Of a DNA stretch of 64,000 nt, positions 4,316 through 38,234 are shown piece by piece. The position numbers and the translations under genes are program-made. Within the stretch, counting starts at the first letter, position 1, and each line of letters opens with the position of its first letter. The notes under the pieces were generated by a model. It worked only from the letters and a program-made list of their open reading frames with translations. It made no database searches and was not told the origin of the DNA. The stretch comes from Sphingomonas soli NBRC 100801 (GTDB taxonomy: Bacteria > Pseudomonadota > Alphaproteobacteria > Sphingomonadales > Sphingomonadaceae): NCBI RefSeq assembly GCF_001591025.1, contig NZ_BCTZ01000003.1:62001-126000 (forward strand), read 5' to 3'.

Positions 4316-4341
4316 CTTTACTTACCGCGATGTAAGTAAAG
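4316..4341. promoter_or_regulatory. Perfect 10-bp inverted repeat, probable TetR-type operator
   Basis: CTTTACTTAC (4316-4325) and GTAAGTAAAG (4332-4341) are exact reverse complements around CGCGAT. The palindrome sits just before the ribosome-binding site (GGAGGGAGG, 4343-4351) of the monooxygenase. Size and position suit a TetR-family repressor. No TetR gene lies nearby, so the regulator would be encoded elsewhere. Confidence 0.55.
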
Positions 4342-4356
4342 TGGAGGGAGGCCGTG

Positions 4357-5820: not shown

Positions 5821-5841
5821 GGGGTAGGTACCTCTGATCGC

Positions 5842-5918
5842 CATCCCCGCGAAAGCGGGGACCCAGAGTTTACTGGCGGTTCGCTGATTGGCTCTGGATC
5901 CCCGCTTTCGCGGGGATG
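5842..5918. repeat. Composite palindromic intergenic repeat (CATCCCCGCGAAAGCGGGG type)
   Basis: Two 27-bp arms (5842-5868 and 5892-5918) are inverted with one mismatch. Each arm contains its own hairpin, CCCCGC-GAAA-GCGGGG. It lies between convergent genes and could act as a bidirectional terminator. Related copies occur at 17191, 18382, 56563 and 57079. Confidence 0.85.
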
Positions 5919-5932
5919 ACGGAAACGGGGGA

Positions 5933-6385: not shown

Positions 6386-6403
6386 ATTCTTGTCCTCATT
6401 ACA

Positions 6404-6498
6404 TCACCCTCACCCTTCCGGCGCTTCGCGCCTCCCTCCCTCTCCCGATGGGAGAGGGAAGGGGCCCGCCGCCGCAGGCGGTGGGAAGGGTGAGGGCG
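6404..6498. repeat. Palindromic intergenic repeat (CACCCTCACCCTTCC...GGGAAGGGTGAGGG)
   Basis: Outer arms CACCCTCACCCTTCC and GGGAAGGGTGAGGG enclose a second hairpin, CCCTCTCCCGATGGGAGAGGG. It lies between maoC and mccA. The same family occurs at 13993-14116 and 52340-52490. Confidence 0.8.
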
Positions 6499-6499
6499 C

Positions 6500-8368
6500 T
6501 TAGGGTTCGCGCTTCTCGATCTTTACCAGCAGCGTGCCTTCGGTCACCTGGGTGTCGGCGGTGGCGTTCAGCTCCGCGACCACGCCGTCGAACGGGGCGG
6601 TCATGCCGTGTTCCATCTTCATCGCCTCCAGCGTGACGAGGCGCTGGCCCTTGGTCACCGTATCGCCCGCCGCGACATCGACGGCGGTGACGCGGCCGGG
6701 CATGGGGGCGAGGATCGCGCCGTCGCCGGCGGACGCGCCGGCCTTGCCATCGAAGCGGGCGAAACCGATCGAGAAGGTCTGGCCGTTTTCGGTGACGCGG
6801 ACGCGACCGTCATGGACTTCCATGAACCAGCGCTCGCCATCCTCGGTGAAGTCGACGGGCGCACGGGTGCCATCGACATCGAGCACGGCGGTGCGGCGGA
6901 CGGATGCGTTGAGGCGGAAGCCGGGCAGGTCGGGGCGGCGCTCCGGCGCTTCCTCCATCAGCCGCCATGCGGCACCGCGCAGCGTCTCCTCGGTGGGGAT
7001 GCGCGGGGGCATCAGCGCGTCGCCGCGCCGATCGATCAGCCCGGTATCCATTTTCCCCGCGATGAAGTCCGGATCGGCGAGCAGCTTGACCAGGAAGGCG
7101 CCGTTGGTCTTTACCGGCCAGACCACGCTGCGCAGCAATGCGTCGCTAAGCCGTTCGATCACGGCGTCGCGCTCCGAACCATAGGCGATGAGCTTGGCAA
7201 TCATCGGATCGTAAAAGGGCGAGACTTCGCCGCCTTCCTCGACGCCGGTATCGCAGCGGATCATCGAATCGTTGAGATCGAAGGCGGTGAGCGGGCCGAT
7301 CGAGGGGAGGAAGCCGGCGGCGGGATCCTCGGCATAGAGGCGGGCCTCCATCGCCCAACCCTGAATGCTCAGTTCGTCCTGCGTGCAAGGAAGCGGCTCG
7401 CCCGACGCTACGCGGAGCTGCCATTCGACGAGATCCTGGCCGGTAATCTCTTCGGTGACCGGATGCTCGACCTGCAGCCGGGTGTTCATTTCCATGAACC
7501 AGATGCGATCTGCGCGCAGGCCTTCGCTGGCGTCCGCGATGAACTCGATCGTACCAGCGCCGACATAATCGACTGCCTTTGCTGCGCGAACCGCCGCAGC
7601 ACAGATCGCCTCCCGGGTCGCTTCGTCCATGCCGGGGGCGGGGGCTTCCTCGATCACCTTCTGGTGGCGGCGCTGGAGTGAGCAGTCCCGCTCGAACAGG
7701 TGGACGACATTGCCGTGGGTGTCGCCGAAGACCTGCACTTCGATGTGGCGCGGGGAGAGGATGTATTTCTCCAGCAGCACGCGATCGTCGCCGAACGAGC
7801 TGGCGGCTTCGCGCTGGCAGGATTGCAGCATCTCGCCGAATTGCTGCGCAGCATCGACGCGGCGCATGCCCTTGCCGCCGCCGCCGGCCACCGCCTTGAT
7901 CAGCACGGGATAGCCGATGGCATCGGCTTCGGCCTGGAGCCGTGCGGGCGACTGGTCTTCCCCCAGATAGCCGGGAGTGACGGGCACGCCCGCGGCGATC
8001 ATCCGGGCTTTTGCTGCATCCTTGAGACCCATCGCGCGGATGCTCTCCGGCTTGGGGCCGACCCAGATCAGCCCGGCGTCCAGCACCGCCTGCGCGAAGT
8101 CGGCATTCTCCGAGAGGAAGCCGTAGCCGGGGTGGATTGCTGCCGCGCCGGTGGCTTTTGCTGCGGCGATGATGCGATCGCCGACAAGGTAAGATTCGCG
8201 CGCCGGAGAGGGGCCAATATGCACGGCCTCATCGGCCAGCCGGACGTGGAGCGCTTCTGCGTCGGCATCGGAGAAGACGGCGACCGTACGGACGCCCATC
8301 TCGCGCGCGGTGCGGATGATGCGACAGGCGATCTCGCCGCGATTGGCGATGAGCAGGGACTGGATCAT
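6500..8368 (-). CDS. mccA: Methylcrotonyl-CoA carboxylase, biotin-carboxylase/biotin-carrier (alpha) subunit
   Basis: 622 residues in the usual order: biotin carboxylase N-domain ([20 protein letters not shown] at the start), ATP-grasp with GGGGKGMR, carboxylase C-domain ([18 protein letters not shown]), linker, and a C-terminal biotinyl domain whose EAMKMEHGM carries the biotin lysine, K584. It carboxylates biotin with bicarbonate and ATP for transfer to an acyl-CoA. A second such subunit (62907 onward) belongs to the propionyl-CoA operon. This one shares its cluster with mccB and isovaleryl-CoA dehydrogenase, so 3-methylcrotonyl-CoA in leucine breakdown is the likely substrate. The start overlaps the preceding gene (ATGA). 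Confidence 0.92.
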   Translation of the reverse strand: MIQSLLIANRGEIACRIIRTAREMGVRTVAVFSDADAEALHVRLADEAVHIGPSPARESYLVGDRIIAAAKATGAAAIHPGYGFLSENADFAQAVLDAGLIWVGPKPESIRAMGLKDAAKARMIAAGVPVTPGYLGEDQSPARLQAEADAIGYPVLIKAVAGGGGKGMRRVDAAQQFGEMLQSCQREAASSFGDDRVLLEKYILSPRHIEVQVFGDTHGNVVHLFERDCSLQRRHQKVIEEAPAPGMDEATREAICAAAVRAAKAVDYVGAGTIEFIADASEGLRADRIWFMEMNTRLQVEHPVTEEITGQDLVEWQLRVASGEPLPCTQDELSIQGWAMEARLYAEDPAAGFLPSIGPLTAFDLNDSMIRCDTGVEEGGEVSPFYDPMIAKLIAYGSERDAVIERLSDALLRSVVWPVKTNGAFLVKLLADPDFIAGKMDTGLIDRRGDALMPPRIPTEETLRGAAWRLMEEAPERRPDLPGFRLNASVRRTAVLDVDGTRAPVDFTEDGERWFMEVHDGRVRVTENGQTFSIGFARFDGKAGASAGDGAILAPMPGRVTAVDVAAGDTVTKGQRLVTLEAMKMEHGMTAPFDGVVAELNATADTQVTEGTLLVKIEKREP

Positions 8369-22330: not shown

Positions 22331-22405
22331 GGCCCCTTCGTCTAGCGGTTAGGACGCGGCCCTTTCACGGCTGAAACACGGGTTCGATTCCCGTAGGGGT
22401 CACCA
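22331..22405 (+). tRNA. tRNA-Glu (anticodon UUC), CCA encoded
   Basis: A 75-base cloverleaf. The acceptor stem GGCCCCT pairs with AGGGGTC. The D-arm region is TCTAGCGGTTAGGA. The anticodon stem CGGCC/GGCTG has the loop CTTTCAC, giving anticodon UUC. The T-arm is ACGGG-TTCGATT-CCCGT, followed by A and CCA. Its 3' end is repeated at 38218-38234, marking it as the integration site of the following island. Confidence 0.97.
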
Positions 22406-22407
22406 TC
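22391..22407. other. attL: island attachment repeat in tRNA-Glu
   Basis: CCGTAGGGGTCACCATC, covering the T-arm end, acceptor strand and CCA of the tRNA plus two bases. Identical to 38218-38234. Insertion here leaves the tRNA intact. Confidence 0.92.
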
Positions 22408-22604: not shown

Positions 22605-23636
22605 ATGGACAGTGAATCAAGAATCCCGCCCTTCATCCGCACACTGAAGCTTCGCTTCAGTGCCGAAGATCTTGCTTACGCCCATGATGATTCGCGATTG
22701 CGCATGTCGTTGCGCGCTGCAATAAATCTTTCAGGGGGGATCATGAAGGTCGAGGAAAGCGGAGATGCGCTCCTGCGGGCTGGCGCCGGTGCGATTGCGC
22801 AATGGCGCAACGAAAATATGGGAATGGTCATTGAGGCGCGATCGGCCATTATTTCCGATTTGCTCCTATCCGGTGCTGACCTGTCGGGGGCCGATCTCCG
22901 AAAATCCCATTTTCTCCGATGCAACATGAGTCATGTGCAGTTTGCAAACTGCAATCTTGATGATGCCACTTTCGAAGACTGCCAACTCGATAATGCTGAT
23001 TTTCGGACGGCCTCGACACGGCGAACACGGATCATGGCTCGCAGCATCGACGGGGCCCGGTTCGGAGCGAGCCCAACGCTTGCTCGCCTCGCTCACCTGG
23101 CCGTTTCTGATCCGGGGCGGCAATCGGTCACAGTCGATCGGAACGCGGTGCGCTGGGTGGATCGTTGGCTAAGCTGGGACCGGCTACGGGTCTTGGCTGC
23201 CATCAGGATCTTCGTACCAGCCTATGTGTCTCTGACGCTAACCGTTCTCTATCTGAACGTGATCGCGTGGTACAATTCAGCGATTGATGTCATCGGCGCA
23301 GCGCTCGTGCATATCGGGGGGATCAGCGCGACGACAACTCTTCCTCATGCGAATCCCAGCTGGACGCAAATGCTCGTCCTTCTGAATTTCGTTTTCCTGG
23401 CGATCGCCGCTACCAGCTTTCTAGGTTGTCCAGCACGGATCGTTGAATTCAGCCGCGAGAGGTGGTGCCATGAACTTAACAAGACTGAACTCTTTTACGA
23501 TATTGCAAGCTGGCATAGCCCTGTCCTTCGCGTAGTGTGTTCGTTTTCGCTCCTGATCGGCGGCGCGCTTAGCAGCTTCCTTCTCATACGCGCTGTAATC
23601 CAACAAACAGCATTCATTGTTCAGCACCTTGGCTGA
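22605..23636 (+). CDS. Pentapeptide-repeat protein with C-terminal membrane helices
   Basis: 343 residues. Residues about 80-140 hold pentapeptide repeats of the A(D/N)LxX type (LLLSGADLSGADLRKSHF, NCNLDDATFEDCQLDNADF), which fold into a right-handed quadrilateral helix. The second half has about four hydrophobic segments (about 195-225, 228-245, 255-280 and 312-335). It stops 12 bases before the NACHT gene and is surely co-expressed with it. I infer a membrane effector or anchor for the NACHT protein; pentapeptide-membrane proteins are also seen alone. Codon use is A+T-richer than the host. No catalytic motif is visible. Confidence 0.8.
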   Translation: MDSESRIPPFIRTLKLRFSAEDLAYAHDDSRLRMSLRAAINLSGGIMKVEESGDALLRAGAGAIAQWRNENMGMVIEARSAIISDLLLSGADLSGADLRKSHFLRCNMSHVQFANCNLDDATFEDCQLDNADFRTASTRRTRIMARSIDGARFGASPTLARLAHLAVSDPGRQSVTVDRNAVRWVDRWLSWDRLRVLAAIRIFVPAYVSLTLTVLYLNVIAWYNSAIDVIGAALVHIGGISATTTLPHANPSWTQMLVLLNFVFLAIAATSFLGCPARIVEFSRERWCHELNKTELFYDIASWHSPVLRVVCSFSLLIGGALSSFLLIRAVIQQTAFIVQHLG

Positions 23637-23648
23637 CGGAAGGTTCCC

Positions 23649-26600
23649 ATGCCATTACGGATCAACGCGACGTCGATCGCCGGCATTGTCGACGACAAAC
23701 TGCCGAGAAACGACTTTTCGGTCGATATCCATCGTCTTGTCGATGTTCTTCGGAACATCATAAAGATTGATCCAAGTACAAGCGCGCTTGAATTCCAGCG
23801 ACGGATGTCGGGGGAGATTGCAGTAGGAATATCCGCCGCCGAACGACTTCTCGACGATTCTTCCGGCTCGGCAATCCACGTCTCCGCGATCAACTCGTTA
23901 GAGCGATTTGCAATTCTCCATTATGTGTCTGTCCAGCGCGCATTCCTGAAAGGACTCGAGGAAGCGGTAGTCGCGATCAAGTTCGACCCTGAGGTTCGAG
24001 ACGCACCTATTCGTCCCGAGAAGGCGCGATTGCCACATCAAGATCTTAACCGAGTCGCCGAGCATTGTCTTAGCCTTGACGTTCCATATACTTTGACCAT
24101 CAACCCGGTCTCGCAACTCGGCGACTATTACTTGGAACAGTATCGAAGCGTGGCGACCATGCTCGGGCACATTCTCACTGGCTGGAAAGGCCCAAGGGAA
24201 TTCAGTCCGTCGACCGAGGTCGCTATCACTGAATACAAAAACTGGCTCACTAGCGGTTTGCTCGCGGTCCGGTCCGTGACATCCTATCTCAATTACGAAC
24301 AACAAAGTGCGCCCCGCACCGTCGTCAACGACGATGTCCACGGCATCTCGGTGGCGCTCAGAGACTGGCTTCGCGCAAACACCGAAATGAGCCAGCGCAA
24401 GAAGGACATGTGGCAAACATATCGGCGAACACTGTCGGAACTGCCCGACGGCAAGGACACCATGTTCGCGGAGAATTTTGGCGTCCGCAAGGTGTTCGTT
24501 CAGCCGCTCGCGTCGTATCAGGTCGCCGGCGTTAAGCAGAAATCTGAGCCGCCGATCATCACCGACGTCGCGGGCTTGGTCGGAACGCTCATAAGCGATC
24601 GCACTGAGGGGGACGATCTGATCCTGTTGGCGGGCGGTCCAGGGTCCGGCAAGTCAACATTGTGTCGGATTCTCGCCAGCGAACTTGCCGCAAATGACAA
24701 TGTCCACCCTGTCTTCCTGAGGCTTCGTCGGCTCCAGGAGAGCGGTGACATACGGGGCTTCATCGAGTCTCAGCTACAAGCGCTTGGACTAATCGACAAG
24801 GTTGCCGATCTCGCCTCAGTACCAAATCTTGTACTAATTCTTGATGGTTTCGACGAGCTCGTCATGGCGAGCCGGGCGAAGCTCCGCGAATTCTTCAATG
24901 CTCTGAAGGAGGATCTGTCAACGGGGCCTTTGCGGCATGCCAAAGCCATAGTTTCGGGTCGTGACACGCTGTTTCCTAACGGCAACGGCCTTCCGATGGG
25001 CGCCCATCTGATTTCGCTGCAGCCATTTGATCGCGCTCGGATTGCAGCGTGGAGTAAAAAGTGGCGCGACCAACATGAGCTAGACACGGTTCAGAATTTC
25101 TTCCCTGAGACGCTGGTCGCCGAACAGGGCGGTCGTGGACACAATAGTTCGCCTCTTGAGCATCTCGTGTCGTGGCCTCTCACCCTTCACCTCGTCGCTC
25201 GCGCCCACACGTCTGGATCGATCGACCTAGACCCCAAAAAAGCCAACCAAGTCGAGAAGGCTGTTCTCTACAGGTCGATCGTTGCCGACACCGCACTTCG
25301 CCAGGACGACCAGACGGGCGGGCGCAATCGCCTTTCTCCTGATCAGATGCGCCGTTTTGTCCGCGCCATAGCATGGGAGATGTACAGCACGGGCCGTGAG
25401 GCGCTTGACGTCACTGAAGGTCTGCCGATCCTCCGCTCAATTCTCCCCGAGGCGACAGAATCCGACCTGTCAGAGCTGGCGGACGTCACCATCGTCAACC
25501 AGCCTGAACTCACGAAGGGAGAGGAGACGGGCTTCGAATTCGTGCACAAAAGCTTTTCAGAGTATTTCGCGGCAGAGACTATCGCGACACGAATCGAAGA
25601 GGCTTGCTTTAAGGTTACTGAATGGGGCGGCACTGAGAAGTCGTGGCGGATGAGCGTCAAGGAAGCGACTTCCGCTCTCTCTGCCCTGTTCTCGATGCGG
25701 CTTCTGACCGCTGAGGTTCAAGAGATGCTCGAGCCGATGCTCGACAGTTTTCAAGCCTTCCTTAGCAACATTAATAAAGCAGGCGACTTTGACCCGGATG
25801 AGATGCCCGGAAGTTTGCTCGCCAAGCTCGAGCGAATGGAGGAGTTGCTTCACGCGTTTTCCGCAGGCGGCTTACTGGGGGAGGTTTCCGGCAGCCCACA
25901 GCAGCGCCGCTCTACTACAAGCGACTTAGAAAGCTTCGCGAATTACGCGTCGGGCCTCCTCTTCGTAGCGGTAGCGCTAACGCGCCGGCTGGAGGTTCAT
26001 GCCGCGCCAATCGCCCGCCCAGTGAGATTAGCGTCCGCGACCTTGCTGCGTACGCTCCACATCGTCCTTGCCGGAGACGTCGTTATCGACTGGGCATATG
26101 CTCGTCGCGGGCTCTCAAGGCTCGACGTTCGGCGGGACGACAAGGAAGGAACAGAGATAGGGTACCCGCCCATCGCGCCCATTCTTTTAAGTGACGTTCG
26201 CGGCCTAAGCACGCATTTGGAAGAGGCGCTACTGGCTCTCGATAGCCAGGTTACGGCGCTAGAACTCGAGAATATCATCCTTACGGCCATGATAGGCCTG
26301 AATGGCGCCCATGCTAATCCATCAATCGGCTTTAGACATATGCGCTATGATCACCGGGTTCGGTATGGAAACGGGCCCATGGATTATCTCGAACGTGTAG
26401 TCACGCTTCGTGACCGTGATCGCTACGACATGGCGCATAGGATGGAGCGCAATCTCTACGAGATGGTAGACCGCTTCCGCGGCAACTACGGTGGAAGTAT
26501 GCCTCCTTCCTCGGCAGTCGGCGACGCTATTGGTTATCTTCGAGAGGCTAGCTTGGACGCTCGCCACCGGGGCATGCATCGGGGTGAATTATACGACCTC

Positions 26601-26687
26601 GCGGAAAGGATCCTGAGATCGCTTATTGGGGTTGAACCGCCGCGCCCGCGCCGACCGAAGAAATCGAAGCCCGCCGCCAGTCAGTGA
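23649..26687 (+). CDS. NACHT-domain STAND NTPase
   Basis: 1012 residues. An N-terminal region of about 300 residues has no recognisable motif. The NACHT module follows: Walker A GGPGSGKST at 329-337, Walker B LVLILDGFDEL with D399 and the paired D402-E403, and the C-terminal NACHT/winged-helix pattern HKSFSEYFAAE beginning at 633. The remaining C-terminal 350 residues are helical and would form the sensor. Such proteins include bacterial NLR-like anti-phage ATPases (bNACHT/Avs types). The ribosome site GGAAGG lies 6 bases before ATG 23649. No fused effector is visible, so the upstream membrane protein is the obvious candidate partner. Confidence 0.88.
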   Translation: MPLRINATSIAGIVDDKLPRNDFSVDIHRLVDVLRNIIKIDPSTSALEFQRRMSGEIAVGISAAERLLDDSSGSAIHVSAINSLERFAILHYVSVQRAFLKGLEEAVVAIKFDPEVRDAPIRPEKARLPHQDLNRVAEHCLSLDVPYTLTINPVSQLGDYYLEQYRSVATMLGHILTGWKGPREFSPSTEVAITEYKNWLTSGLLAVRSVTSYLNYEQQSAPRTVVNDDVHGISVALRDWLRANTEMSQRKKDMWQTYRRTLSELPDGKDTMFAENFGVRKVFVQPLASYQVAGVKQKSEPPIITDVAGLVGTLISDRTEGDDLILLAGGPGSGKSTLCRILASELAANDNVHPVFLRLRRLQESGDIRGFIESQLQALGLIDKVADLASVPNLVLILDGFDELVMASRAKLREFFNALKEDLSTGPLRHAKAIVSGRDTLFPNGNGLPMGAHLISLQPFDRARIAAWSKKWRDQHELDTVQNFFPETLVAEQGGRGHNSSPLEHLVSWPLTLHLVARAHTSGSIDLDPKKANQVEKAVLYRSIVADTALRQDDQTGGRNRLSPDQMRRFVRAIAWEMYSTGREALDVTEGLPILRSILPEATESDLSELADVTIVNQPELTKGEETGFEFVHKSFSEYFAAETIATRIEEACFKVTEWGGTEKSWRMSVKEATSALSALFSMRLLTAEVQEMLEPMLDSFQAFLSNINKAGDFDPDEMPGSLLAKLERMEELLHAFSAGGLLGEVSGSPQQRRSTTSDLESFANYASGLLFVAVALTRRLEVHAAPIARPVRLASATLLRTLHIVLAGDVVIDWAYARRGLSRLDVRRDDKEGTEIGYPPIAPILLSDVRGLSTHLEEALLALDSQVTALELENIILTAMIGLNGAHANPSIGFRHMRYDHRVRYGNGPMDYLERVVTLRDRDRYDMAHRMERNLYEMVDRFRGNYGGSMPPSSAVGDAIGYLREASLDARHRGMHRGELYDLAERILRSLIGVEPPRPRRPKKSKPAASQ

Positions 26688-26817: not shown

Positions 26818-27315
26818 CGACGGCCGGTAGTTTAGAGCGCGTTGCAAATCTGCGTTGAAAGCCAAGCATATTCAAACCAGTCGATGGCGCTGCATTATCT
26901 CGCCGTCCTCCAATCAGCCGTTTCAGCAACAAAGGCAGCGTACAATCGGCGGTACTGCCAGCGCTAAGGTTGTTGATTTTACTTGCGAATTCACCGGAGG
27001 CGACGGCGCGCCCCGCGCGGAGACGGCCTAAATTCGCCAATCTCCACCACCATTTGCACACCAGCAGACGGCGGTGCTTTTATCTCGCCGTCCTCTAACC
27101 GGCCTCTCACCAAGAAACGGCAGCGTACAATCGGCGGTCCTGCCAGCGCGAAAAGTGTTGGAAATTCTCGCAAATTTGCGCGTAGCGACGGCGCCCTGCA
27201 CCCGGAGGCGGCGGATATTCTGCAAGTTATACAACCATATGCGCCCAGACCGACGGCGGCGCTTTTATCTTGCCGTCCACCCAGACCGCCCTCTCCAGGG
27301 ACGACCCGAGGCCAA
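26818..27315. repeat. Tandem repeat, about 185-bp unit, two and a half copies; no gene 26688-27392
   Basis: The landmarks TATCTCGCCGTCC recur at 26896, 27081 and 27266 (the last with one change), exactly 185 bases apart. TACAATCGGCGG recurs at 26941 and 27126. CGACGGC recurs near 26818, 27001 and 27186. Units run 26818-27000, 27001-27185 and a partial from 27186. No convincing reading frame runs through them on either strand. The 705-base gap between the NACHT gene and the next small gene is otherwise without a feature I can name. Confidence 0.85.
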
Positions 27316-27623: not shown

Positions 27624-28520
27624 TTACGCTGACAAGCGGCGTTCGCACACCTGACCGACCAGTCCTTGCAAAGCCGTGACGCGTTCGGCCAGCCAGCGCA
27701 ATTCCTCCTCGGTGATCTCGTAATGTGGCGAGTAGCGCGCATTCACGTAGGCCTGCCGCAACAACTCGAAACAGCGGCGGCTGAATTTGTCCGCGCGAGG
27801 CCACGCCGCGATCAACTCGGGGGCGATTTCCTCGGCATGCGAGCGGAGGAAATTCAGCTTGTGGGATTTGGGGCTGTAGAGCGTCAAAACGAGTAACGCG
27901 CAATGATAGAAGCGCTCCGCTGATTGGTGGAGATTGAAAGCTGCCTCATTCCTATCGCCACGCTCCGTCAGGAAGCGAGCCGATGCAAGGAAGGCATCTG
28001 CGCTGGGAAACCACTTGTCGAAGTGCTGCTGAGCCTCGATGCGCGCTTGCTCGGGCGGCAGGTCGCGGGGCTGCGCGAAGGGGAACCCCTCGGCCTCGCA
28101 GAGCGCGATACCCTGGCTCACGATATCGGCGAAGAACGGTCGCCCTTTCTCAAGCTGCGCGTTCACATCGGTGAGCGAATGCACGATAAAATTGACAGGG
28201 GCGCTGAGTGCCTTGGTGATGGTCGTATCACGCATCAGCCGGTCCTCGGCGGCGGACCAAAATTCGAACTCGGTCAGGCGCTCGTCATTGACGACAATGA
28301 GTATGTCGTAATCGGACTGGTAGCCGCCGATAGGGTCGTCAACCCAGTCGCCGCGCGCGAATGAGCCGTACAGGACGATCTTGAAGATGCGACGGGCCTT
28401 CTTCCAGTCCTTGGTGCCGATCGCGTGCGCGGCTTCGAACTCCTCGACCAGTACGCGCGCGACATGGGCAAGTTCGCGCTGCCGCGAGGCTGGAAGATGG
28501 TCGAGAGAGGTCCGCAACAT
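27624..28520 (-). CDS. MNT-HEPN fusion protein (nucleotidyltransferase + HEPN)
   Basis: 298 residues. The N-terminal minimal nucleotidyltransferase has the GS...DxD signature, YGSFARGDW at 51-59 and SDYDILIVV with D70 and D72. The C-terminal half (about 165-290) is helical and HEPN-like (RGDRNEAAFNLHQSAERFYHCALLVLTLYSPKSHKL, later NARYSPHYEI). In stand-alone pairs MntA AMPylates or polyadenylates the HEPN toxin to silence it. Here both are in one chain, as in many sphingomonad islands I recall. It is followed on the minus strand by nothing; the sigma-like gene lies just upstream. Confidence 0.85.
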   Translation of the reverse strand: MLRTSLDHLPASRQRELAHVARVLVEEFEAAHAIGTKDWKKARRIFKIVLYGSFARGDWVDDPIGGYQSDYDILIVVNDERLTEFEFWSAAEDRLMRDTTITKALSAPVNFIVHSLTDVNAQLEKGRPFFADIVSQGIALCEAEGFPFAQPRDLPPEQARIEAQQHFDKWFPSADAFLASARFLTERGDRNEAAFNLHQSAERFYHCALLVLTLYSPKSHKLNFLRSHAEEIAPELIAAWPRADKFSRRCFELLRQAYVNARYSPHYEITEEELRWLAERVTALQGLVGQVCERRLSA

Positions 28521-29796: not shown

Positions 29797-32154
29797 ATGA
29801 GGATGCATTTGAAGAAGCTGGCTGTCCGCAACTTTCGTAGGTTGCAGGATGTCGTCATCGATCTCGCTTCCGATATTTCGATTTTCGTCGGCGCCAACAA
29901 CAGTGGAAAGACCTCGGTGGGGCACGCGCTTCAGCTTTTCACCGGGCATGGTCGCTTCAACATCCACGATTTTAGCGCGGAGTTGTGGCCGAGTATCGTC
30001 GCGTTCGGCGCCGGTGAGGAAGGCGCTGCGCTGCCGACCGTGGAAGTCGATGTCTGGCTGGAGATCGGCGCTGAGGACGTCCATCGCGCGATCGATTTGC
30101 TGCCGAGCCTCGCGTGGGAAAGCACGCTTGTCGGGATGCGAGTCGCCTATGCTCCGATCGATCCCGAGGCCACCCGCGCGAGATATACCGAAGCCCGCGA
30201 ACGCGCCCTCGCCGCAGTTGATAAGGACGAGCACGATGTGCCGGTGTTCGACCCGGCGCCACGCCACCTACGCGATTACCTGCGCAATCATCTGAACGAC
30301 GAATATGAGCTACGCTACTTCGTGCTCGATCCGGCGAAGTTCGACGCCAATATGGTCGCCGAAGCGGAATATGTTCCGGCATCGCTCGCTGGACGAGATC
30401 AAAGCGGACGCGAGATTTTGAACAGCATTCTCCGGATCGATTTCCTCAATGCCCAGCGTCACTTGTCGGATAGTCCCGGAGGCGCCCGGGCGGAGGACCT
30501 GTCGCGCGTGCTCAGTCGCTTCTACGGCCGCAATCTTGAGCAAAGGGGTGAGGATCTCGACGCCCTCCGGGCGCTCGCCGCGTCCGAGGTTTCGCTCAAT
30601 GAGCATCTCGAGCGCGTGTTCGAGCCTACTCTCAGGAGCCTCGCCAAGCTCGGCTATCCAGGACTGTCGAACCCGCGGATGATGATACGATCGGCGCTCG
30701 ATCCCGCGCAAATTATGAGCAGCCGCGACGGCGCGCTGGTCCACTACGCGCTGGGTCCAGATGATGGCGCGCCCGATCCACCGACGCTGCCCGACCGCTA
30801 CAATGGGCTGGGATTTAAGAACCTCATTTTCATGGTGGTCGAGCTTCTCGACTTGCACGCCCAGTGGCTGGCAATCGAGGAGGACCGCCCGCCGGTCCAT
30901 CTGATCTTCATCGAGGAGCCCGAGGCGCATCTCCACGCCCAGTTACAGCAGGCCTTCATCCGCAAGGTCATGGACATCCTTGCGCTCAAGGGCGCTGAAC
31001 GCACCGCCTATACGAGCCAGGTCGTCGTCACCACGCATTCGACTCATATTCTCTATGAGCGCGGCTTTCGTCCAATCCGCTATTTCCGGCGCGGCCGGAC
31101 AGAAGCGACCTCGACTTCGGACGTGCTCAATCTCTCCGTCTTCTATGACAGCACCGATCCCGACGTTCGCACCTTCCTCGAACGCTACCTCAAGCTCGCG
31201 CATTGCGATCTCTTCTTCGCCGATGCCGCCGTCCTCGTTGAAGGCAATGTCGAGCGATTGCTATTGCCACAGATGATCGAAACCGCCGCGCCGCGGCTCC
31301 AGTCGACCTATCTGACGATCCTCGAGATCGGGGGCGCGTTCGGCTATCGCTTCAAGGCGCTGATCGAATTCCTCGGTCTCACCACTCTCATCATCACAGA
31401 TCTCGACAGTGTCTTCGGCCCGCCGGCTGAGCCGGAGGCAGGTGTCGAGGCGCCTGCACCCGCAGGAGGCGGCGCTGTGCAGGGCGCTGAGGACGCCGCC
31501 GTGGCGGACGCAGATGAAGACGAGGACGAAGACGGGGAAGCGGCCGGTCAGCTACCGGCTGAAAAGCCGGGCAAGGCGTGCATCGCCGGTCATCCGGGAG
31601 CGGCGACCTCCAATCAGACGCTTCTGCAATGGCTCCCGAAATGCGGCACCATCGCAGCGCTGTGGGAGGCGACTGCCGACGACAAGACGCAGGCGCGTGC
31701 CAACGACAACGATGCCCTTGTGCGCGTTGCCTATCAATGCCGCACCGATGTGACTTGGGGTGGCGACACACTCTCGTTGGCAGGCCGCACGCTCGAGGAA
31801 GCGTTCGCGCTCGAGAATCTCGACTGGTGCCAGCACAAGGATCGAAAGCCGCTCCAGCTCCGCATCGCCAAGAATGATGAGAAGGATCTCGGCGAGCTGG
31901 CTCGCCGCATTCACAAGCGCGTTCAGGCGAAAAGCTTCAGCAAGACCGACTTCGCCCTCGCGTTGCTCGCCGAAGACCCAACAACTTGGGTTGTGCCGGA
32001 ATACATCGCTGACGGCCTTCGCTGGCTCGAAGCGGAAATCGCACCCCCGGACCCCGAGCCCGAGCCCGACGACGAGGCGGACGCGGAAGAGGTGGCTGGC
32101 GCCGGGGCCGACGCCCTTGCCGCGCCTGAGCCGGATGGCGAGGTTGCCGCGTGA
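29797..32154 (+). CDS. OLD-family ATPase/TOPRIM nuclease (GajA-like)
   Basis: 785 residues. ABC-type ATPase: Walker A GANNSGKT at 32-39, signature-like NGLGFKNLIFM near 336-346, Walker B LIFIEEPEAHLH from 369. The C-terminal TOPRIM metal site is E482 (AVLVEGNVERLLLP) and D535/D537 (LIITDLDSV). An unusual acidic, Pro/Ala-rich insertion (about 540-590, with EDEDED) follows the DxD, and there is an acidic tail (PEPEPDDEADAEE). In Gabija, GajA nicks DNA when nucleotide levels fall. Length exceeds the roughly 580 of Bacillus GajA. The stop overlaps the helicase start (GTGA), which marks a class 2 OLD pair. Confidence 0.86.
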   Translation: MRMHLKKLAVRNFRRLQDVVIDLASDISIFVGANNSGKTSVGHALQLFTGHGRFNIHDFSAELWPSIVAFGAGEEGAALPTVEVDVWLEIGAEDVHRAIDLLPSLAWESTLVGMRVAYAPIDPEATRARYTEARERALAAVDKDEHDVPVFDPAPRHLRDYLRNHLNDEYELRYFVLDPAKFDANMVAEAEYVPASLAGRDQSGREILNSILRIDFLNAQRHLSDSPGGARAEDLSRVLSRFYGRNLEQRGEDLDALRALAASEVSLNEHLERVFEPTLRSLAKLGYPGLSNPRMMIRSALDPAQIMSSRDGALVHYALGPDDGAPDPPTLPDRYNGLGFKNLIFMVVELLDLHAQWLAIEEDRPPVHLIFIEEPEAHLHAQLQQAFIRKVMDILALKGAERTAYTSQVVVTTHSTHILYERGFRPIRYFRRGRTEATSTSDVLNLSVFYDSTDPDVRTFLERYLKLAHCDLFFADAAVLVEGNVERLLLPQMIETAAPRLQSTYLTILEIGGAFGYRFKALIEFLGLTTLIITDLDSVFGPPAEPEAGVEAPAPAGGGAVQGAEDAAVADADEDEDEDGEAAGQLPAEKPGKACIAGHPGAATSNQTLLQWLPKCGTIAALWEATADDKTQARANDNDALVRVAYQCRTDVTWGGDTLSLAGRTLEEAFALENLDWCQHKDRKPLQLRIAKNDEKDLGELARRIHKRVQAKSFSKTDFALALLAEDPTTWVVPEYIADGLRWLEAEIAPPDPEPEPDDEADAEEVAGAGADALAAPEPDGEVAA

Positions 32155-34028
32155 CCAGCCGCATCGGCAGCCCCGACACGCCGGCGGACATCGAGGTCCG
32201 CGCCTGCCTCGACCGCAAAATCCCGCGCTCGTTCGTGATGGTTGCGGGCGCCGGCTCGGGCAAGACAACTTCGTTGATCAAGGCGCTCGATCACCTTGCC
32301 CGGACCCGAGGTCCGGCGCTGCGCCGCGCGGGGCAGCAAATTGCCTGCATCACGTATACCGAGGTCGCAGTCGGCGAGATCTCCGATGATGTCGGCGTCT
32401 CGCCGCTGTTCCACATCTCCACGATCCACAGCTTCCTGTGGTCGGTGATCCGGCCATTCCAGAGCGATATCGCAACCTGGGTCGGCATCCGCATTGAGGA
32501 GAAGATCGCTGAGCGCCGCGAACATTACGATAGGCCGCGCACGCAGGCGCGAACCAAGGCACGGCTGGAGGTCGAGATCGCCGAGCTCGAAGGCCAGCTC
32601 GCCGCGATCGGCGCCGTCGAAAAGTTCATCTACGGCACCGGCAGCAGCTATGCCGAAGGTATTCTTGGCCATGACGATGTGTTGAAGCTGACGCCCTATT
32701 GCGTTGGCGCCCATCCGCTGCTGCGACGTGTCTTCGCCAGCCGCTTTCCGTTCATTTTTGTCGACGAAAGCCAGGACACCAATCCCGAAGTCGTCGAAGC
32801 GCTGCGCGCGATCGAGGCCGAGCAGCCGCGCCTGTGTGTCGGCTTCTTCGGCGACCCCATGCAGAAGATCTACATGAGCGGCACCGGTGCCGTCGCGCTC
32901 GGCGCTGGCTGGGCTGAGATCAGCAAGCCTGAGAACTTTCGCTGCCCAACCTCTGTCCTCGGTGTGGTCAATGCGATCCGGGCCGCGGGCGACGGCCTAG
33001 TTCAGACCCGCGGCCGCCGGATCAAGGTCGGCGATGTCGAGCAGCCCATCGTCGGCACCGCAAATCTCTTCGTTCTCCCGGCCGACGATCAGCGCAGTGC
33101 CCGCCTCGCTGCGGTCCGAACATGGCTCGCCGGAGAGACCGACGACGCGCTCTGGCTGAGCGACGCACCCGAGGGCGATGTTCGGCTGCTGGTGCTGGTG
33201 CATCGCATGGCGGCAACGCGGCTTGGATTTCCAAACCTCTATTCCGCGCTCAACGACCGTGCGCCGATGAGCCTCAGCGAAGGGATCGCCGATGGCTCCG
33301 CTTGGCCGCTACGACCGGTCGCGCAGCATATTCTGCCTTTGGTCATGGCCGCTCGCGGGGGTGACCGCTTCACCGTCATGTCGATCCTGCGCAGCGAAAG
33401 CCCAAGGCTCGAACCGGAGCGTCTGCGCGGATTGCCGGCGGCTCCGATCCTGACCGGTCTTCAAAAGGCGCTCGACGCTTTGGTCGAGATGCTCGCGGAT
33501 GGGTCACAAGCCACGGTGCGACAGCTGATGCGGCATGTCCGCGACACCCAATTGCTGCGCCTCGACGACCGGTTTGGGCCGCATCTGGTGGACGAGCCGG
33601 TTGATGACGGCAGCAGCGGCTTCTCCAACATACAGGCTTTCCTCGCCTGCCAGATCGATGAGCTCTGGGCCTATCGGCGCTATTTCACCGAAGAATCGCC
33701 GTTCGCGACCCATCACGGCGTGAAGGGTGCGCAGTTTGAGCGCGTTCTGGTCGTCGTTGACGACGAAGAAGCGGCTTTTCACCAATACTCCTACGGCAAG
33801 TACTTCGGTTATGCGCCGCTGTCGGACAGTGACCAGGCGAAGATCGATGCGGGCGAGGAGACGGTGCTCGATCGCACGCGGCGTCTCTTCTACGTCTGCT
33901 GTTCGCGCGCGATGAAGGATTTGGCGGTCGTGCTTTTCGTGCCCGACGTGGCCGCGGCGAGCGCTGCGATCGCCGCGAAGAACCTGTTCCCGCAGGCGTC
34001 AATACATGGCCTCGACGTGCTGGCCTAA
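32151..34028 (+). CDS. UvrD/Rep-type superfamily 1 helicase (GajB-like)
   Basis: 625 residues from a GTG that overlaps the nuclease stop by four bases. Helicase motifs are complete: Walker A AGAGSGKTT at 32-40, motif II FVDESQDTN with D205, motif III-like GFFGDPMQKIY, and motifs V/VI in THHGVKGAQFERVLVVVDDEE and RTRRLFYVCCSRAMKDLAVV. Partner of the OLD nuclease; in Gabija the GajB helicase senses DNA ends and works with GajA. A role in defence is inferred from pairing and island location. Confidence 0.88.
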   Translation: MTSRIGSPDTPADIEVRACLDRKIPRSFVMVAGAGSGKTTSLIKALDHLARTRGPALRRAGQQIACITYTEVAVGEISDDVGVSPLFHISTIHSFLWSVIRPFQSDIATWVGIRIEEKIAERREHYDRPRTQARTKARLEVEIAELEGQLAAIGAVEKFIYGTGSSYAEGILGHDDVLKLTPYCVGAHPLLRRVFASRFPFIFVDESQDTNPEVVEALRAIEAEQPRLCVGFFGDPMQKIYMSGTGAVALGAGWAEISKPENFRCPTSVLGVVNAIRAAGDGLVQTRGRRIKVGDVEQPIVGTANLFVLPADDQRSARLAAVRTWLAGETDDALWLSDAPEGDVRLLVLVHRMAATRLGFPNLYSALNDRAPMSLSEGIADGSAWPLRPVAQHILPLVMAARGGDRFTVMSILRSESPRLEPERLRGLPAAPILTGLQKALDALVEMLADGSQATVRQLMRHVRDTQLLRLDDRFGPHLVDEPVDDGSSGFSNIQAFLACQIDELWAYRRYFTEESPFATHHGVKGAQFERVLVVVDDEEAAFHQYSYGKYFGYAPLSDSDQAKIDAGEETVLDRTRRLFYVCCSRAMKDLAVVLFVPDVAAASAAIAAKNLFPQASIHGLDVLA

Positions 34029-34083
34029 TCGTAGCAAAAAATGGCCGCTTTCAGTAAGATGAAAATCACCCCGAGCGGCCGAG

Positions 34084-34121
34084 ATTGGGTCGGAAGCTGT
34101 CGGTCTGCTTCGCGACCCAAT
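34084..34121. other. Strong stem-loop; 34029-34476 otherwise without a gene
   Basis: ATTGGGTCGGAAGC (34084-34097) pairs with GCTTCGCGACCCAAT (34107-34121) with one bulged base around a nine-base loop. It follows the helicase stop by 56 bases and may end that transcript, although no T-run follows. The rest of the 448-base gap shows no convincing frame; it must contain the promoter of the cupin/TIR/Nudix operon. Confidence 0.55.
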
Positions 34122-34476
34122 TCGGGCCATTCGCGGCAACCGTCGGCGATCCCGAAGGCAGCCATTCTTTCATCTTGCCACCCGAACCCCAGCCGGGTCG
34201 GCAGCGAGGCACTGGACTTGAGGATCGAGTCAATCGTGACGTTAGGTGCGCCCGCATCTTGGAAGCAGAGCGCGGTGGGGACTGCGAGAACGCTGATTTA
34301 GCGGCAGATCCGGGCGAGCCCAGATGATGGCCAGGATCGATTGAGAAACGGGCGCGGGGGCAGTGGTTAACTGTTCACGCCGAGTACAGGATTTGGCGCG
34401 CCTATATTGCATCTCCGCTCGCAATCACCATGTTGAATGATGCGAGCGCATGTGCTCGCGCAAGACGAGGGCCGAA

Positions 34477-34959
34477 ATGGCGCTTCGCGGACCGAAGTTT
34501 AAGATCATCACCAAGCAGGGGAAGGTCTTTCTCTATCGGCTTAGTATTCCCCTTTGGCGCGGCTCGCTCAAGATACACTTGATCGTGAATGACGATGTGG
34601 GCGATCCGCACATCCATCCTTGGGAATTTTCCACCTTCCTGCTGCTCGGCGCCTACAAAGAATGGGTCGATAGCGCGATCGTGAGGCATTGGCCGTTCGC
34701 GCTGGTCCGCTATGGCCGCGCCAAACGTCACAAGGTGATACTGTATCGGCTGTTCGGGGTAAAGCTGCCGTGCCTTACCGTCGGCCGCTACTCGGAAAAG
34801 GTGCAGCCCTGGTGCCAGCAGACCCAGCTCTGCGATCTCTGTGCGCCGCATGGGGAGTGTCTCGATAAGATATATTGGCGCGAGCGCGGCCTGGCTAATG
34901 CGTTGGACAAGGGGACAGAAGTTGAGCCGGCAGAGCCGGTGACGGTCGAGAAGGTTTAG
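34477..34959 (+). CDS. Cupin-like protein of unknown function (first gene of TIR operon)
   Basis: 160 residues. The segment NDDVGDPHIHPWEFSTFLLLGAYKEW (H45, H47) followed by RYGRAKRHKVIL resembles a cupin-like family with an HDHPWDF metal motif and a second histidine near the middle, which I recall only as phage and bacterial hypothetical proteins. Two cysteine pairs (WCQQTQLCDLC, ECLD) near the C-terminus are unusual. The ATG at 34477 is chosen because GAGG lies 7-10 bases upstream. It precedes the toroid-TIR gene by 27 bases. A metal-dependent enzyme or nucleotide binder is possible, not shown. Confidence 0.65.
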   Translation: MALRGPKFKIITKQGKVFLYRLSIPLWRGSLKIHLIVNDDVGDPHIHPWEFSTFLLLGAYKEWVDSAIVRHWPFALVRYGRAKRHKVILYRLFGVKLPCLTVGRYSEKVQPWCQQTQLCDLCAPHGECLDKIYWRERGLANALDKGTEVEPAEPVTVEKV

Positions 34960-34986
34960 CGCGACGATGGGCGTGGGGGCAACTTG

Positions 34987-36390
34987 ATGCGGACCGATGC
35001 GGCGGGGATTCTCGGCGAGCTCGGTGTCGATTTCAAGCGCGCGGTCCAGTTCCTCAAGGTCGATTGCCGGCTCCCTCAGGGCTTTGAGTCCCAGACCGTC
35101 GGGCTTGGCGTGCGCAGCGCCACCACTTCGGGCATCGTTTCCTATGTCCTAGCTTCGCTTGGCGTGCTGTCGGAGAGCGAAAAGGCGCAGCTAATCGATG
35201 AATTGCTCGCCTTTCGCATTGAGGACGGCCGACCGCATTCCTACGGCCACCTGCGTCCCAATTCTTGGGCGACCTGGCAGCTGGTCGCCGGCCTGCTCGC
35301 GCTCGGTGCCGACATTCGCTCGGTGACGCCGATCGTCGACGCCGCGATCGAGCGCTACCAGACTGGCGTCGGCGGCTGGTGCTTCAGCAGCTCGCTCGAC
35401 GAGCGGCTGCCTTATGCGATCTATCCGGTCGTCTGCATGAGCAGGCTGATCCGGATGGGCAGGGTCGAATATGTCGCGCCTCTGGAGCTAACGGCTTCGT
35501 ATCTGCGCAACTATGTATCCCCGACTGCCACCGAGCGGCTGATCTGCGCGGGCCTACTCGGTTTGGCGAGCGAGGCACCGGGCGGGCGCTATGCTGCGGA
35601 TTTGGGGGAGATCGATTTGTCGCGGATCATCTCGAGCGAGTTCGGGCACTATGGCACGATCGAGTTCACCACCGCGCCGTTCAGCATGCGGGTCTACACG
35701 CCTGCGCTCTATTTGATCACCCGGCGTCTGCTCGGGGTCGAGCATCCGCTTTCGCGCTACTTCCTCGCCTATCTGTCGCGCAGCGTCCTCGACGGCAGGG
35801 CGTGGACGCATGTCGTGACCGGCAGCCCAACCGAGCCGAGTTCCTTTTGCAGCGCGCTGGCGCTGCTCAGCATCTGCCGTGGCGCGTCAGACCTCGCCGC
35901 GAGAGGCCGCTCCGCCGATTTTGTCAACCCGCCTCTGGAGGATTTGCGCATGATGGTGGCCAATGCCAGTCCGCCGGCCAAGATCTTCGTCTCCTATTCC
36001 TCGCGCGACGAGGCGACCGCCAGCCGGATCGTCGAGCGCTTGAAGGCGCTGGGCTTTGCGGTGATCTACGCCGAGACCGATCTCCTGGTCGGGGATTCGA
36101 TCCCAGGCTATATCAACGACGCCCTGACCAACATGGACTATCTCGTCCTGCTGATGTCGCCGGCCTCGGTCGCCTCAGTGTTCGTCCGCGATGAGTTCGA
36201 AGGCGCCAAGTCGCTCGAATGGGCAAGGCGCCGGGTGACGATCTTGCCAGCGCTGATCGAGGAATGCCAGATCCCGGCGATCCTGGCGCCCAAGAAATAT
36301 GCAGATTTCCGTGGGTCATTCGATCTCGGCATGCAACAGTTACTCAAGTCCCTGGGAGCGCGACATGACCAGAGAAGACGGGATCCATAG
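34987..36390 (+). CDS. Alpha/alpha-toroid (prenyltransferase/squalene-cyclase-like) - TIR fusion protein
   Basis: 467 residues. The N-terminal 320 residues are helical repeats with a QW-type motif, YQTGVGGWCF near residue 125 (QxxxGGW), and LRPNSWATWQLVAGLLAL, as in terpene-cyclase and prenyltransferase toroids; no DxDD cyclase motif is seen, so it may be a ligand sensor. The TIR domain spans about 331-455: KIFVSYSSRDEATA, FAVIYAETDLLVG, then SVASVFVRDEFEGAKSLEWA. E403 fits the TIR NADase catalytic glutamate (S-x-W-V-x-x-E, with F for W). I infer a stress- or phage-triggered NAD-consuming or signal-making enzyme. The C-terminus overlaps the Nudix gene by 26 bases. Confidence 0.85.
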   Translation: MRTDAAGILGELGVDFKRAVQFLKVDCRLPQGFESQTVGLGVRSATTSGIVSYVLASLGVLSESEKAQLIDELLAFRIEDGRPHSYGHLRPNSWATWQLVAGLLALGADIRSVTPIVDAAIERYQTGVGGWCFSSSLDERLPYAIYPVVCMSRLIRMGRVEYVAPLELTASYLRNYVSPTATERLICAGLLGLASEAPGGRYAADLGEIDLSRIISSEFGHYGTIEFTTAPFSMRVYTPALYLITRRLLGVEHPLSRYFLAYLSRSVLDGRAWTHVVTGSPTEPSSFCSALALLSICRGASDLAARGRSADFVNPPLEDLRMMVANASPPAKIFVSYSSRDEATASRIVERLKALGFAVIYAETDLLVGDSIPGYINDALTNMDYLVLLMSPASVASVFVRDEFEGAKSLEWARRRVTILPALIEECQIPAILAPKKYADFRGSFDLGMQQLLKSLGARHDQRRRDP

Positions 36391-36820
36391 AATCGAGGCC
36401 CATGTATCCGGAGTGTGCATCTCGTCTGAGGGGCACGACCGGGTGTTGCTAGGCAAGCGTGCCGACTGGCGCCAGCTCTTCCCCAGCCATTGGGAATGCG
36501 GCGGCGGTCAAGTGCTGCTCAACCAGAGTTTCGATGAAGCGGTTCGTGCGCATCTGCATGACGAGTTTGGACTGACTATCGGCACAGTGCAGCCATTCTG
36601 CACCTACGCGATCCAACTAAGCGATGGTGGGGTCATTCCGGGCTTGCGTTTCGTTTGCCCGATCTCGCCGGAGGCGCAGGTGACCATCGATAATCGGCAG
36701 ATCGTCGAATTCGCGTGGGTGCCGCTTGAGAAGCTCCCAGACTATAGGACAATCCCCGGGCTCGCCGAGGAGATTCTAGAAGGCGCGCGTGTGCTCCGGG
36801 CGAGCGGCAGTCGGGTGTAG
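36365..36820 (+). CDS. Nudix-fold protein with a degenerate Nudix box
   Basis: 151 residues. The fold is Nudix (GVCISSEGHDRVLLGKR, then HWECGGGQ), but the box at residues 46-70 is changed. Against GX5EX7REUXEEXGU, the first E is Q, R-E is A-H, and the E-E pair is D-E (EAVRAHLHDEFGL). Most metal-binding residues are lost, so a hydrolase is doubtful and a nucleotide-binding sensor is possible. The start lies inside the TIR gene, so translation is coupled. In TIR immunity, NAD-derived nucleotides are messengers, and a dead Nudix next to a TIR protein could bind such a product; this is inference. Confidence 0.78.
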   Translation: MTREDGIHRIEAHVSGVCISSEGHDRVLLGKRADWRQLFPSHWECGGGQVLLNQSFDEAVRAHLHDEFGLTIGTVQPFCTYAIQLSDGGVIPGLRFVCPISPEAQVTIDNRQIVEFAWVPLEKLPDYRTIPGLAEEILEGARVLRASGSRV

Positions 36821-36903
36821 GATCTGCGTCTTGCACGGGCGATGCCGTGTGTACACGGGGTTGCCGACTATGCACTGGATGCCATGCAGAGCTTTGGCCA
36901 ACG

Positions 36904-38061
36904 TCAAGCGAGCAAGAAGTTTGCCCAATCGCTCATCAATGCTCGCCGCCGCTCGAAAAAGTCGGTTCGTCTGTAAGCCGCTTCGACCGCATTGGTGATC
37001 CGGTGCGCAAGCGCTTTGTCGGCAACCTCTTTCGGGACGTTCGTGCACTCGGCAACCCAGTCGGTGAACGTGCTGCGAAAGCCATGCACGGTGGCATTCT
37101 CGACCTTCATGTCTCGCAGTACCTTGAGCATGGTCATATCGCTGATCGGTTTGTCGCCTCCGAAACTGAACAACAGGCTTTCCGGCGTCACTTTCCCATG
37201 GAGTTCCTGGTGACGCTGCCGGAGCGACCGCAGCAGCTTCACGGCGGCCGGTGCGAGCGGAATGACGTGCGCTTCCTTCATCTTCATCCTAGCCGCCGGG
37301 ATCGACCAGACCGCCCTTTCGAGATCAAACTCTCCCCAAGTTGCCTTGCGCGTCTCGTTCGAGCGGACGGCAGTGAGAATCGTCAGCCGAAGTGCGTCGC
37401 GCCCCAGCGTCGATGGGAGAGCCGAAAGCGTCCGTATGAAGGCTGGTGCATCCTCATGCGGCATCGCCGCCCTGTGCGTTACTTGGTGGGTCTGGCGGGG
37501 CAGCCCGCGCGTCACCGAGCGCAGCGACACCTCTTCCGGCACCAATCCTTTGATGTGAGCATAGTCCAGCACGGTGCCGATCCGTTGCAGCACGCGCTTG
37601 GCGGTATCTGGAATTGTCAGCCAGATCGGCTCCAGCACGGTCAGGACGGCGGCGCTATCGATCGCGGTTACGGCCTTGCTGCCGATAAGCGGGAAGACGT
37701 GGCGTTCAAAGCTCGACATCCACGAAGCATGCCGCTGGTCCTTCCAGCCACCCTTCATCGCGTCATAGCAATCGCGCGCGACCTTCTCGAAAGTCGGCGC
37801 GGATTTGCGGGTCGCTCGGCGCTTCGATGCGGGATCGAGGCCCGCACGGATCGTCTTCCGCATGTTCGCGGCGAGAATGCGCGCATCGGAAAGAGATACG
37901 TCGTGTGCAGGCCCCAATCCGAAGTCTCGGCGCCGCCCCGCATGCTGCATCCGCAGCACCCAGGATCGTGTTCCGCTTTCGCGAACGAGCAGGTATAATC
38001 CGTGTGCGTCTGCATGCCTTCCGGGTCCGGCATGCTTGACCCTCAAGCTGGTCAACGCCAT
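36904..38061 (-). CDS. Tyrosine recombinase/integrase (P4-type, DUF4102)
   Basis: 385 residues. The N-terminal DUF4102-like arm-binding region is VKHAGPGRHADAHGLYLLVRESG. The catalytic residues are all present: R233 (TAVRSNETRK), H326-x-x-R329 (VHGFRST), H353 (ALAHRI) and nucleophile Y363 (EAAYRRTDFF). It integrates the island into the tRNA-Glu 3' end. ATG 38061 is preferred, with GGAG 7-10 bases upstream. The gene lies 157 bases from attR and reads inward. Confidence 0.95.
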   Translation of the reverse strand: MALTSLRVKHAGPGRHADAHGLYLLVRESGTRSWVLRMQHAGRRRDFGLGPAHDVSLSDARILAANMRKTIRAGLDPASKRRATRKSAPTFEKVARDCYDAMKGGWKDQRHASWMSSFERHVFPLIGSKAVTAIDSAAVLTVLEPIWLTIPDTAKRVLQRIGTVLDYAHIKGLVPEEVSLRSVTRGLPRQTHQVTHRAAMPHEDAPAFIRTLSALPSTLGRDALRLTILTAVRSNETRKATWGEFDLERAVWSIPAARMKMKEAHVIPLAPAAVKLLRSLRQRHQELHGKVTPESLLFSFGGDKPISDMTMLKVLRDMKVENATVHGFRSTFTDWVAECTNVPKEVADKALAHRITNAVEAAYRRTDFFERRRALMSDWANFLLA

Positions 38062-38080
38062 CTGAAACTCCGTTCTGAAG

Positions 38081-38098
38081 TCCCACATCGCGTCCCAC
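38081..38098. repeat. TCCCACATCGCGTCCCAC motif near attR
   Basis: Counterpart of 22462-22480 at the other end of the island, just upstream of the integrase start. The two differ by two bases in the TT/CG centre. A reverse-orientation relative is at 38125-38136. Possible integrase arm sites. Confidence 0.5.
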
Positions 38099-38217: not shown

Positions 38218-38234
38218 CCGTAGGGGTCACCATC
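38218..38234. other. attR: copy of the tRNA-Glu 3' end
   Basis: CCGTAGGGGTCACCATC, identical to 22391-22407, but preceded by GCTAT rather than a tRNA body. It marks the right end of the integrated island; host sequence resumes after it. Confidence 0.92.

Follow-up and report, generated by a model that had tools for sequence, protein, structure and literature searches.

What do three tightly linked genes, encoding a cupin-like protein, a protein with a TIR domain and a Nudix-fold protein that lacks its catalytic core, do together in an integrative element of Sphingomonas soli NBRC 100801? We analyzed a 64,000-nucleotide stretch of this organism (contig NZ_BCTZ01000003.1, positions 62,001 to 126,000 of the forward strand), which belongs to a contig of a 3.5-Mb genome; this whole stretch is the window referred to below, and coordinates are those of the window unless another locus is named. 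An earlier reading of the window, made from its letters and open reading frames without database searches (the sequence-only reading), had proposed the three genes as an undescribed immune operon. The answer that we favor, tentatively and with a probability of about 0.45, is that the second gene encodes a TIR effector that would degrade nicotinamide adenine dinucleotide (NAD+) and would carry a sensor or assembly region at its N-terminus, and that this effector is co-expressed with a nucleotide-binding, Nudix-type protein and a cupin-type accessory protein.

All three genes are encoded on the same strand. Gene 1 (34450..34959, +) encodes the cupin-like protein of 169 amino acids, with an alternative start at ATG 34477, the tenth codon of the open reading frame; gene 2 (34984..36390, +) starts either at TTG 34984 (468 amino acids) or at ATG 34987 (467 amino acids), and consists of an N-terminal region of approximately residues 1-325 and a C-terminal TIR domain; gene 3 (36365..36820, +) encodes the Nudix-fold protein of 151 amino acids, with GGGAG located just 5′ of its ATG at 36365 and a longer start also present at 36299. 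The sequence-only reading had described these genes as tightly coupled, with the last overlapping its neighbor by 26 bases, and we see exactly this overlap between genes 2 and 3, while genes 1 and 2 lie 24-27 bases apart. The overlap and the short gap suggest co-expression, and we class the three genes as operon-like and presumably co-transcribed. All three frames are open, and their GC content at third codon positions (0.70-0.79) resembles that of gajA, gajB and a nearby kdpD-like gene (0.73-0.80), so that genes 1-3 look like real coding sequence.

The assignment of gene 2 as an effector is carried by its TIR domain, where the Pfam family TIR_2 (PF13676) covers residues 334-454 at E 8.5e-22, over the cut-off. 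This region also aligns with TIR domains of solved structure, namely 7uxr (E 1.8e-6) and the NAD+ hydrolase AbTIR, 8g83 (E 5e-4). The catalytic glutamate proposed from the sequence is in place within the motif FVRDEFEGA, as E404 when counted from the TTG start or E403 when counted from ATG 34987, and it is aligned to a glutamate of 7uxr; we take this position to be the catalytic one in TIR domains. No other TIR_2 match was found in the genome at E <= 1e-3. Several PADLOC models of defence-associated TIR proteins match gene 2, for example PDC-S66 (E 5.1e-10), SAVED_TIR (E 9.5e-10) and Aga_TIR (E 1.7e-7), as does the NCBIfam retron TIR model (E 9.7e-8; 31 bits, cut-off 600), in each case over the TIR region alone. 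By its parts, gene 2 therefore reads as a TIR defence effector, and it is predicted to cleave NAD+.

Gene 3 is a Nudix protein by its fold and has lost most of its Nudix box, as the sequence-only reading had claimed. The Nudix family PF00293 matches gene 3 at E 3e-5, over the cut-off, and Nudix proteins in the PDB are matched by sequence. Examination of the box demonstrated that it reads GX5QX7AHLHDEFGL against the canonical GX5EX7REUXEEXGU, i.e., a core of AHLHDE replaces RExxEE and one of the four box-core residues is retained. The best NCBIfam match of gene 3 is isopentenyl-diphosphate isomerase, a Nudix-fold enzyme, and this match is weak (E 5.2e-7; 29.5 bits, cut-off 127). We considered an isoprenoid reading, in which an isomerase-like Nudix protein acts with a terpene-cyclase-like toroid in gene 2, and dropped it because the isomerase match lies far under the cut-off, the presence of a toroid is unproven and fusions of cyclase type occur in several relatives. 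A match of gene 3 to the PADLOC model PDC-S07 was likewise dropped as evidence for defence, since this is a general MutT-type model that matches 317 of 367 genomes of the class (E <= 1e-9), as well as 12 of the 14 controls.

The relatives of the gene 3 Nudix domain, which we gathered by stepwise searches, provide the main new argument concerning its function. The closest by sequence, at 34-38% identity, are two stand-alone Nudix genes in viral contigs, L133 (5953-6453; L132 is identical to it over 1,501 aligned bases) and L147 (5923-6480), and no TIR or cupin partner was found in the stretches fetched for them. L133 has three neighboring genes without a Pfam match, and its assignment to a phage therefore depends on the collection from which it was taken. 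Four of the seven distinct members of the group, in contrast, are fused at the N-terminal side to a cyclase or cyclase-like domain. In a Methylobacterium aquaticum plasmid protein (L034, 5392-6462), a class III cyclase (PF00211, E 8.4e-7) is joined to a Nudix domain without the catalytic core. The other three fused members are cyclase-like-Nudix proteins, each behind an ImmA/IrrE peptidase gene: a 489-amino acid protein in genome G258 (L098, module at 6097-8104), a 481-amino acid protein in an IMG/VR contig (L103, module at 4461-6459) and gp37 of phage phiCD27 (L134, module at 2875-4958). The term cyclase-like is our reading of SxDLVNST...WKxxGDE motifs, since L034 alone exceeds the cut-off of a cyclase model; no Pfam cyclase model reached this region of L098, L103 or gp37, and a profile search of the PDB at E <= 1 gave a single match, the diguanylate cyclase DosC (E 0.033).

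In the Nudix tree, the window protein, L034, L098, L103, L133 and L134 form one group, with support of 100/99, against 21 canonical Nudix rows; the tree is unrooted, and these six members are what lies to one side of a branch. L147 was found later and is absent from the tree. The canonical core RExxEE is present in none of the seven group members (the six in the tree and L147), their core hexamers being AHLHDE in the window, RHYRSE in L034, KEYQAD in L098, ESYKQD in L103, RQMFEE in L133, DEYEKD in L134 and RQIFEE in L147. Fourteen of the 21 comparison rows were chosen for a matching Nudix box; the seven that were not so chosen (L050-L055 and L099) all keep RExxEE. To judge from these alignments, gene 3 belongs to a Nudix group from phages and other mobile elements in which the core is lost in all members. 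The lost core and the cyclase or cyclase-like fusions favor nucleotide binding over hydrolysis, and the fusions point to a nucleotide ligand for gene 3; the suggestion that a degenerate Nudix protein binds a nucleotide signal, already part of the sequence-only reading, is thus probably strengthened by this grouping.

As an observation on the relatives themselves, an ImmA/IrrE peptidase gene followed by a gene for a cyclase-like-Nudix protein is a recurrent two-gene module in mobile elements (L103, L098 and L134). The peptidase of L103, the only one scanned against the PADLOC model CapP, matches it at E 5.6e-30. The N-terminal region of L098, L103 and phiCD27 gp37 also occurs in proteins without a visible Nudix part on a Leptospira plasmid and a Sphingomonas plasmid, and an ImmA/IrrE-type peptidase gene precedes the cyclase-like gene on the Leptospira plasmid as well, giving a similar pair that has no Nudix part.

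The evidence for gene 1 is of a different strength. The protein matches phrog_4786, a phage family labelled "cysteine dioxygenase", at E 4e-7, which gives weak support to the cupin-like assignment made from the sequence; the fold itself is hinted at by profile matches to the PDB, all six of which are cupins, mostly of the TM1459-like or Cupin_2 kind, at weak E values of 0.36-0.76. All three aligned sequences share the histidines H54, H56 and H94, which are candidate metal ligands; among the C-terminal cysteines, C131 is common to the aligned sequences and C122, C128 and C137 are not. Relatives of gene 1 occur on mycobacterial plasmids (three records) and, with weak E values of 0.04-0.08, in four phage records, and its cupin family is found in 28 IMG/VR contigs. 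Taken together, these matches weakly suggest that gene 1 encodes a cupin.

The reading that we favor would join these parts as follows, and we infer every functional step of it. Genes 1-3 would be a single co-transcribed, horizontally carried, defence-type unit, in which the N-terminal region of gene 2 may detect an infection cue or hold the protein inactive within an assembly. Once activated, the TIR domain would cleave NAD+, so that the cell would be starved or an ADP-ribose-type product would be made. The Nudix-like protein would bind a nucleotide ligand, either the TIR product or a nucleotide derived from the infection, and by doing so it may restrain the TIR protein, whose translation would be coupled to its own, or set the threshold for its action. 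The cupin-like metal protein would be a putative accessory, and the suggestion in the sequence-only reading that it modifies or hydrolyses the product is speculative.

Several observations weigh against this reading, among them those on the N-terminal region of gene 2. Its 325 residues gave only chance-level matches in Pfam and no match in the PDB. The sequence-only reading had seen here a terpene-cyclase-like alpha/alpha toroid; by eye, the region reads as paired helices that close with GGW- or GxxW-like motifs, as presumably occur in toroids, and the toroid is nevertheless unconfirmed by any significant profile, PDB or hhalign match. Comparison with squalene-hopene cyclases using hhalign gave a P value of 0.089, which is not significant, with the reversed control scoring better (0.027) and a toroid-type open reading frame used as a positive control giving 6.6e-5. 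Structure prediction, which had been proposed as a check, yielded no usable fold: AlphaFold2 models made without an alignment had a mean predicted local distance difference test score of 34.5 for gene 1 and 36.5 for gene 2, too low to use, and a Foldseek search with the low-quality gene 2 model gave no match at E <= 0.001, the best (E 0.03) being a designed repeat protein. No sigma-70-like site upstream of gene 1 on the + strand was seen in a consensus promoter scan that covered 34000-37000. The Nudix tree warns of long branches meeting, with the window protein and L133 among them, and of an odd letter make-up in L098, L103, L134 and L099; Pfam sees no Nudix domain in L134, whose Nudix part rests on alignment and a PDC-S07 match at E 1.4e-5.

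The gene set is also rare. We found no credible relative of the gene 2 N-terminal region in 249 genomes of the family (E <= 1e-3), 398 of the phylum (E <= 0.01) or 121 of the genus (E <= 1e-6), these three samples being overlapping draws, and none in 72,556 plasmid records (E <= 1) or 50,697 phage records (E <= 0.01). Pattern scans of IMG/VR and of the GTDB genome set, in which close relatives only are detectable, found no such relative either; the genome-wide scans gave chance matches only, in 42 stretches for the N-terminal part and 51 for the Nudix part. Three candidates were set aside as noise after the three frames of the matched strand had been read for each: G188 has two TGA codons and one TAA codon inside the match and its frame differs from the local coding frame, G387 is a frame of 78 amino acids that covers residues 254-318 only, and the frame of G428 differs from that of the FtsW- and MurG-like genes read there by eye. 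Other genome matches that we examined were TIR-only or noise. Excluding the window's own locus, no two of the four domain families occur together in any of 140 fetched loci, with the proviso that 87 of the 140 are shorter than 4.7 kb and give a view of only ~1.5 kb to either side. Within these loci, the cupin family was counted 34 times, the Nudix family 27 times, the TIR family 25 times and the N-terminal region twice, and both of the latter matches (L022 and L048) are the G387 place fetched twice, i.e., noise. The sequence-only reading had named in advance, as a finding that would speak against it, the absence of the three genes together elsewhere; in the collections that we covered no second set was found, and to that extent the objection stands. 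This rarity weakens the claim of a system and does not disprove it. We also found no description of this gene set in the titles, opening parts of abstracts and passages of the open-access literature that were searched.

The probabilities that we attach to the favored reading and its rivals overlap in part and need not sum to one. Gene 2 could act by itself as a TIR defence effector equipped with its own sensor, the cupin and Nudix genes being passengers derived from phages. The closest relatives of gene 3 (L133 and L147) do stand alone in viral contigs, the families never co-occur in the 140 fetched loci, and gene 1 in particular could be a passenger because its family has 28 loci in viral contigs, besides occurring on plasmids. 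The 26-base overlap and the closeness of gene 1 to gene 2, however, suggest co-expression, and the three frames are open with a third-position GC content like that of their neighbors, and we regard this explanation as somewhat unlikely.

The two remaining rivals concern what the Nudix-like protein does. It may bind the TIR protein rather than a ligand, in the manner of a toxin-antitoxin pair, and silence it until infection disturbs the complex; the overlap of the two genes suggests that they are translationally coupled and expressed in a fixed ratio, and loss of the catalytic core across the group would fit such a role. The Nudix domain of the relatives, however, is fused to cyclase-type domains or stands alone and is not paired with a TIR protein, which fits ligand binding better, and we consider this pairing improbable. 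It may instead be an enzyme with an altered active site, with histidine in place of the catalytic glutamate, and remove the TIR product or a different nucleotide. The closest relatives have a nearly intact box that keeps its EE (RQxxEE), so that gene 3 may have an enzymatic role, a further point against the receptor that we propose; the weak best match to isopentenyl-diphosphate isomerase leans the same way. Against this stands the window protein itself, with its AHLHDE core and a single box-core residue left of four, so that clearance by such an enzyme seems to us about as improbable as the pairing.

Comparison with known systems shows partial likeness to several of them. As in Thoeris, a TIR domain with its catalytic glutamate lies in a defence island, but no ThsA-type SIR2/SLOG protein or other described partner is encoded by genes 1-3, which places them outside the definition of that system; ThsB models match weakly and near the TIR part only (best E 6.9e-4), and the Thoeris III model ThcB4 reaches 23 bits where its cut-off is 220. 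PDC-S66, SAVED-TIR, the TIR-Argonaute partner and the retron TIR protein are similar in the TIR part, whereas no SAVED, Argonaute or reverse transcriptase match was found elsewhere in the three proteins. Pycsar shares the TIR effector and, through the relatives of gene 3, the link to class III cyclase or cyclase-like domains, but the three proteins have no cyclase match, so that PycC is lacking; PycC models give only a weak match (E 0.0018) even to the Methylobacterium protein that fuses a cyclase to a Nudix domain. The peptidase and cyclase-like-Nudix genes of phiCD27, L103 and G258 belong to the same Nudix group and are carried by mobile elements, yet they have a cyclase-like domain where the window has TIR, fused rather than separate, and an ImmA/IrrE peptidase where the window has a cupin. 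Finally, Nudix domains are described in two papers (PMC9503650 and PMC7159879) as sensing ADP-ribose or as belonging to NAD+-linked conflict systems; NrtR-type sensors are similar in that a Nudix fold is proposed or known to sense ADP-ribose-type ligands, but the proteins of genes 1-3 have no DNA-binding domain match.

The setting of the three genes is that of an integrative element, in agreement with the tRNA island proposed from the sequence. A tRNA-Glu (TTC) gene (22331..22405, +, ARAGORN) marks its left end and attachment site, and a k-mer scan identified a 17-bp exact repeat, made of the last 15 bases of the tRNA gene and the next two bases, with its left copy at 22391..22407 (+) and its right copy at 38218..38234 (+), beyond a tyrosine integrase gene (36904..38088, -; PF22022, PF13356 and PF00589). 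Since the end of tRNA-Glu recurs exactly past the integrase, the operon lies in an element of ~15.8 kb. We looked for an empty site in relatives by scanning 7 of 11 loci other than our own; none of the seven contains a tRNA gene, and the scan is uninformative on this point. The defence-type neighbors claimed earlier are also present: directly upstream of genes 1-3 lie both required parts of a Gabija system, the OLD-type nuclease GajA (29797..32154, +; PADLOC PDLC00095, E 1.4e-255) and the UvrD-type helicase GajB (32151..34028, +; PDLC00143, E 6.6e-231), whose genes overlap by 4 bases, with ~420 bases between gajB and gene 1.

Elsewhere in the element, a gene for a pentapeptide-repeat protein and then one for a NACHT protein of 1012 amino acids (22605-26687) follow right after the tRNA-Glu attachment site and are possibly a second defence pair. 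The gap after the NACHT gene contains two tandem copies of ~163 nucleotides with 73% identity (26895-27278), and a single open reading frame at 27624-28520 (-) fuses a nucleotidyltransferase to a HEPN domain.

A broader proposal, which we consider unlikely as it stands, is that the core-less Nudix group supplies mobile immune or counter-immune systems with a nucleotide receptor that can be reused as a module, occurring as a cyclase-like fusion behind an ImmA/IrrE (CapP-like) peptidase or, in the window, as a separate reader of the product of a TIR domain joined to a new sensor region. Genes 1-3 would then form a TIR signalling system not described before, with the dead Nudix protein as its receptor and the cupin as an accessory. 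If the genes are no more than neighbors, what the Gabija-bearing island adds is just another orphan TIR protein. If the proposal is true, TIR immunity would gain a new arrangement, with a Nudix fold that is catalytically dead serving to read or buffer the signal, and it would tie this dead Nudix fold to cyclase-like genes of prophages, making the ligand of these broken Nudix domains directly testable.

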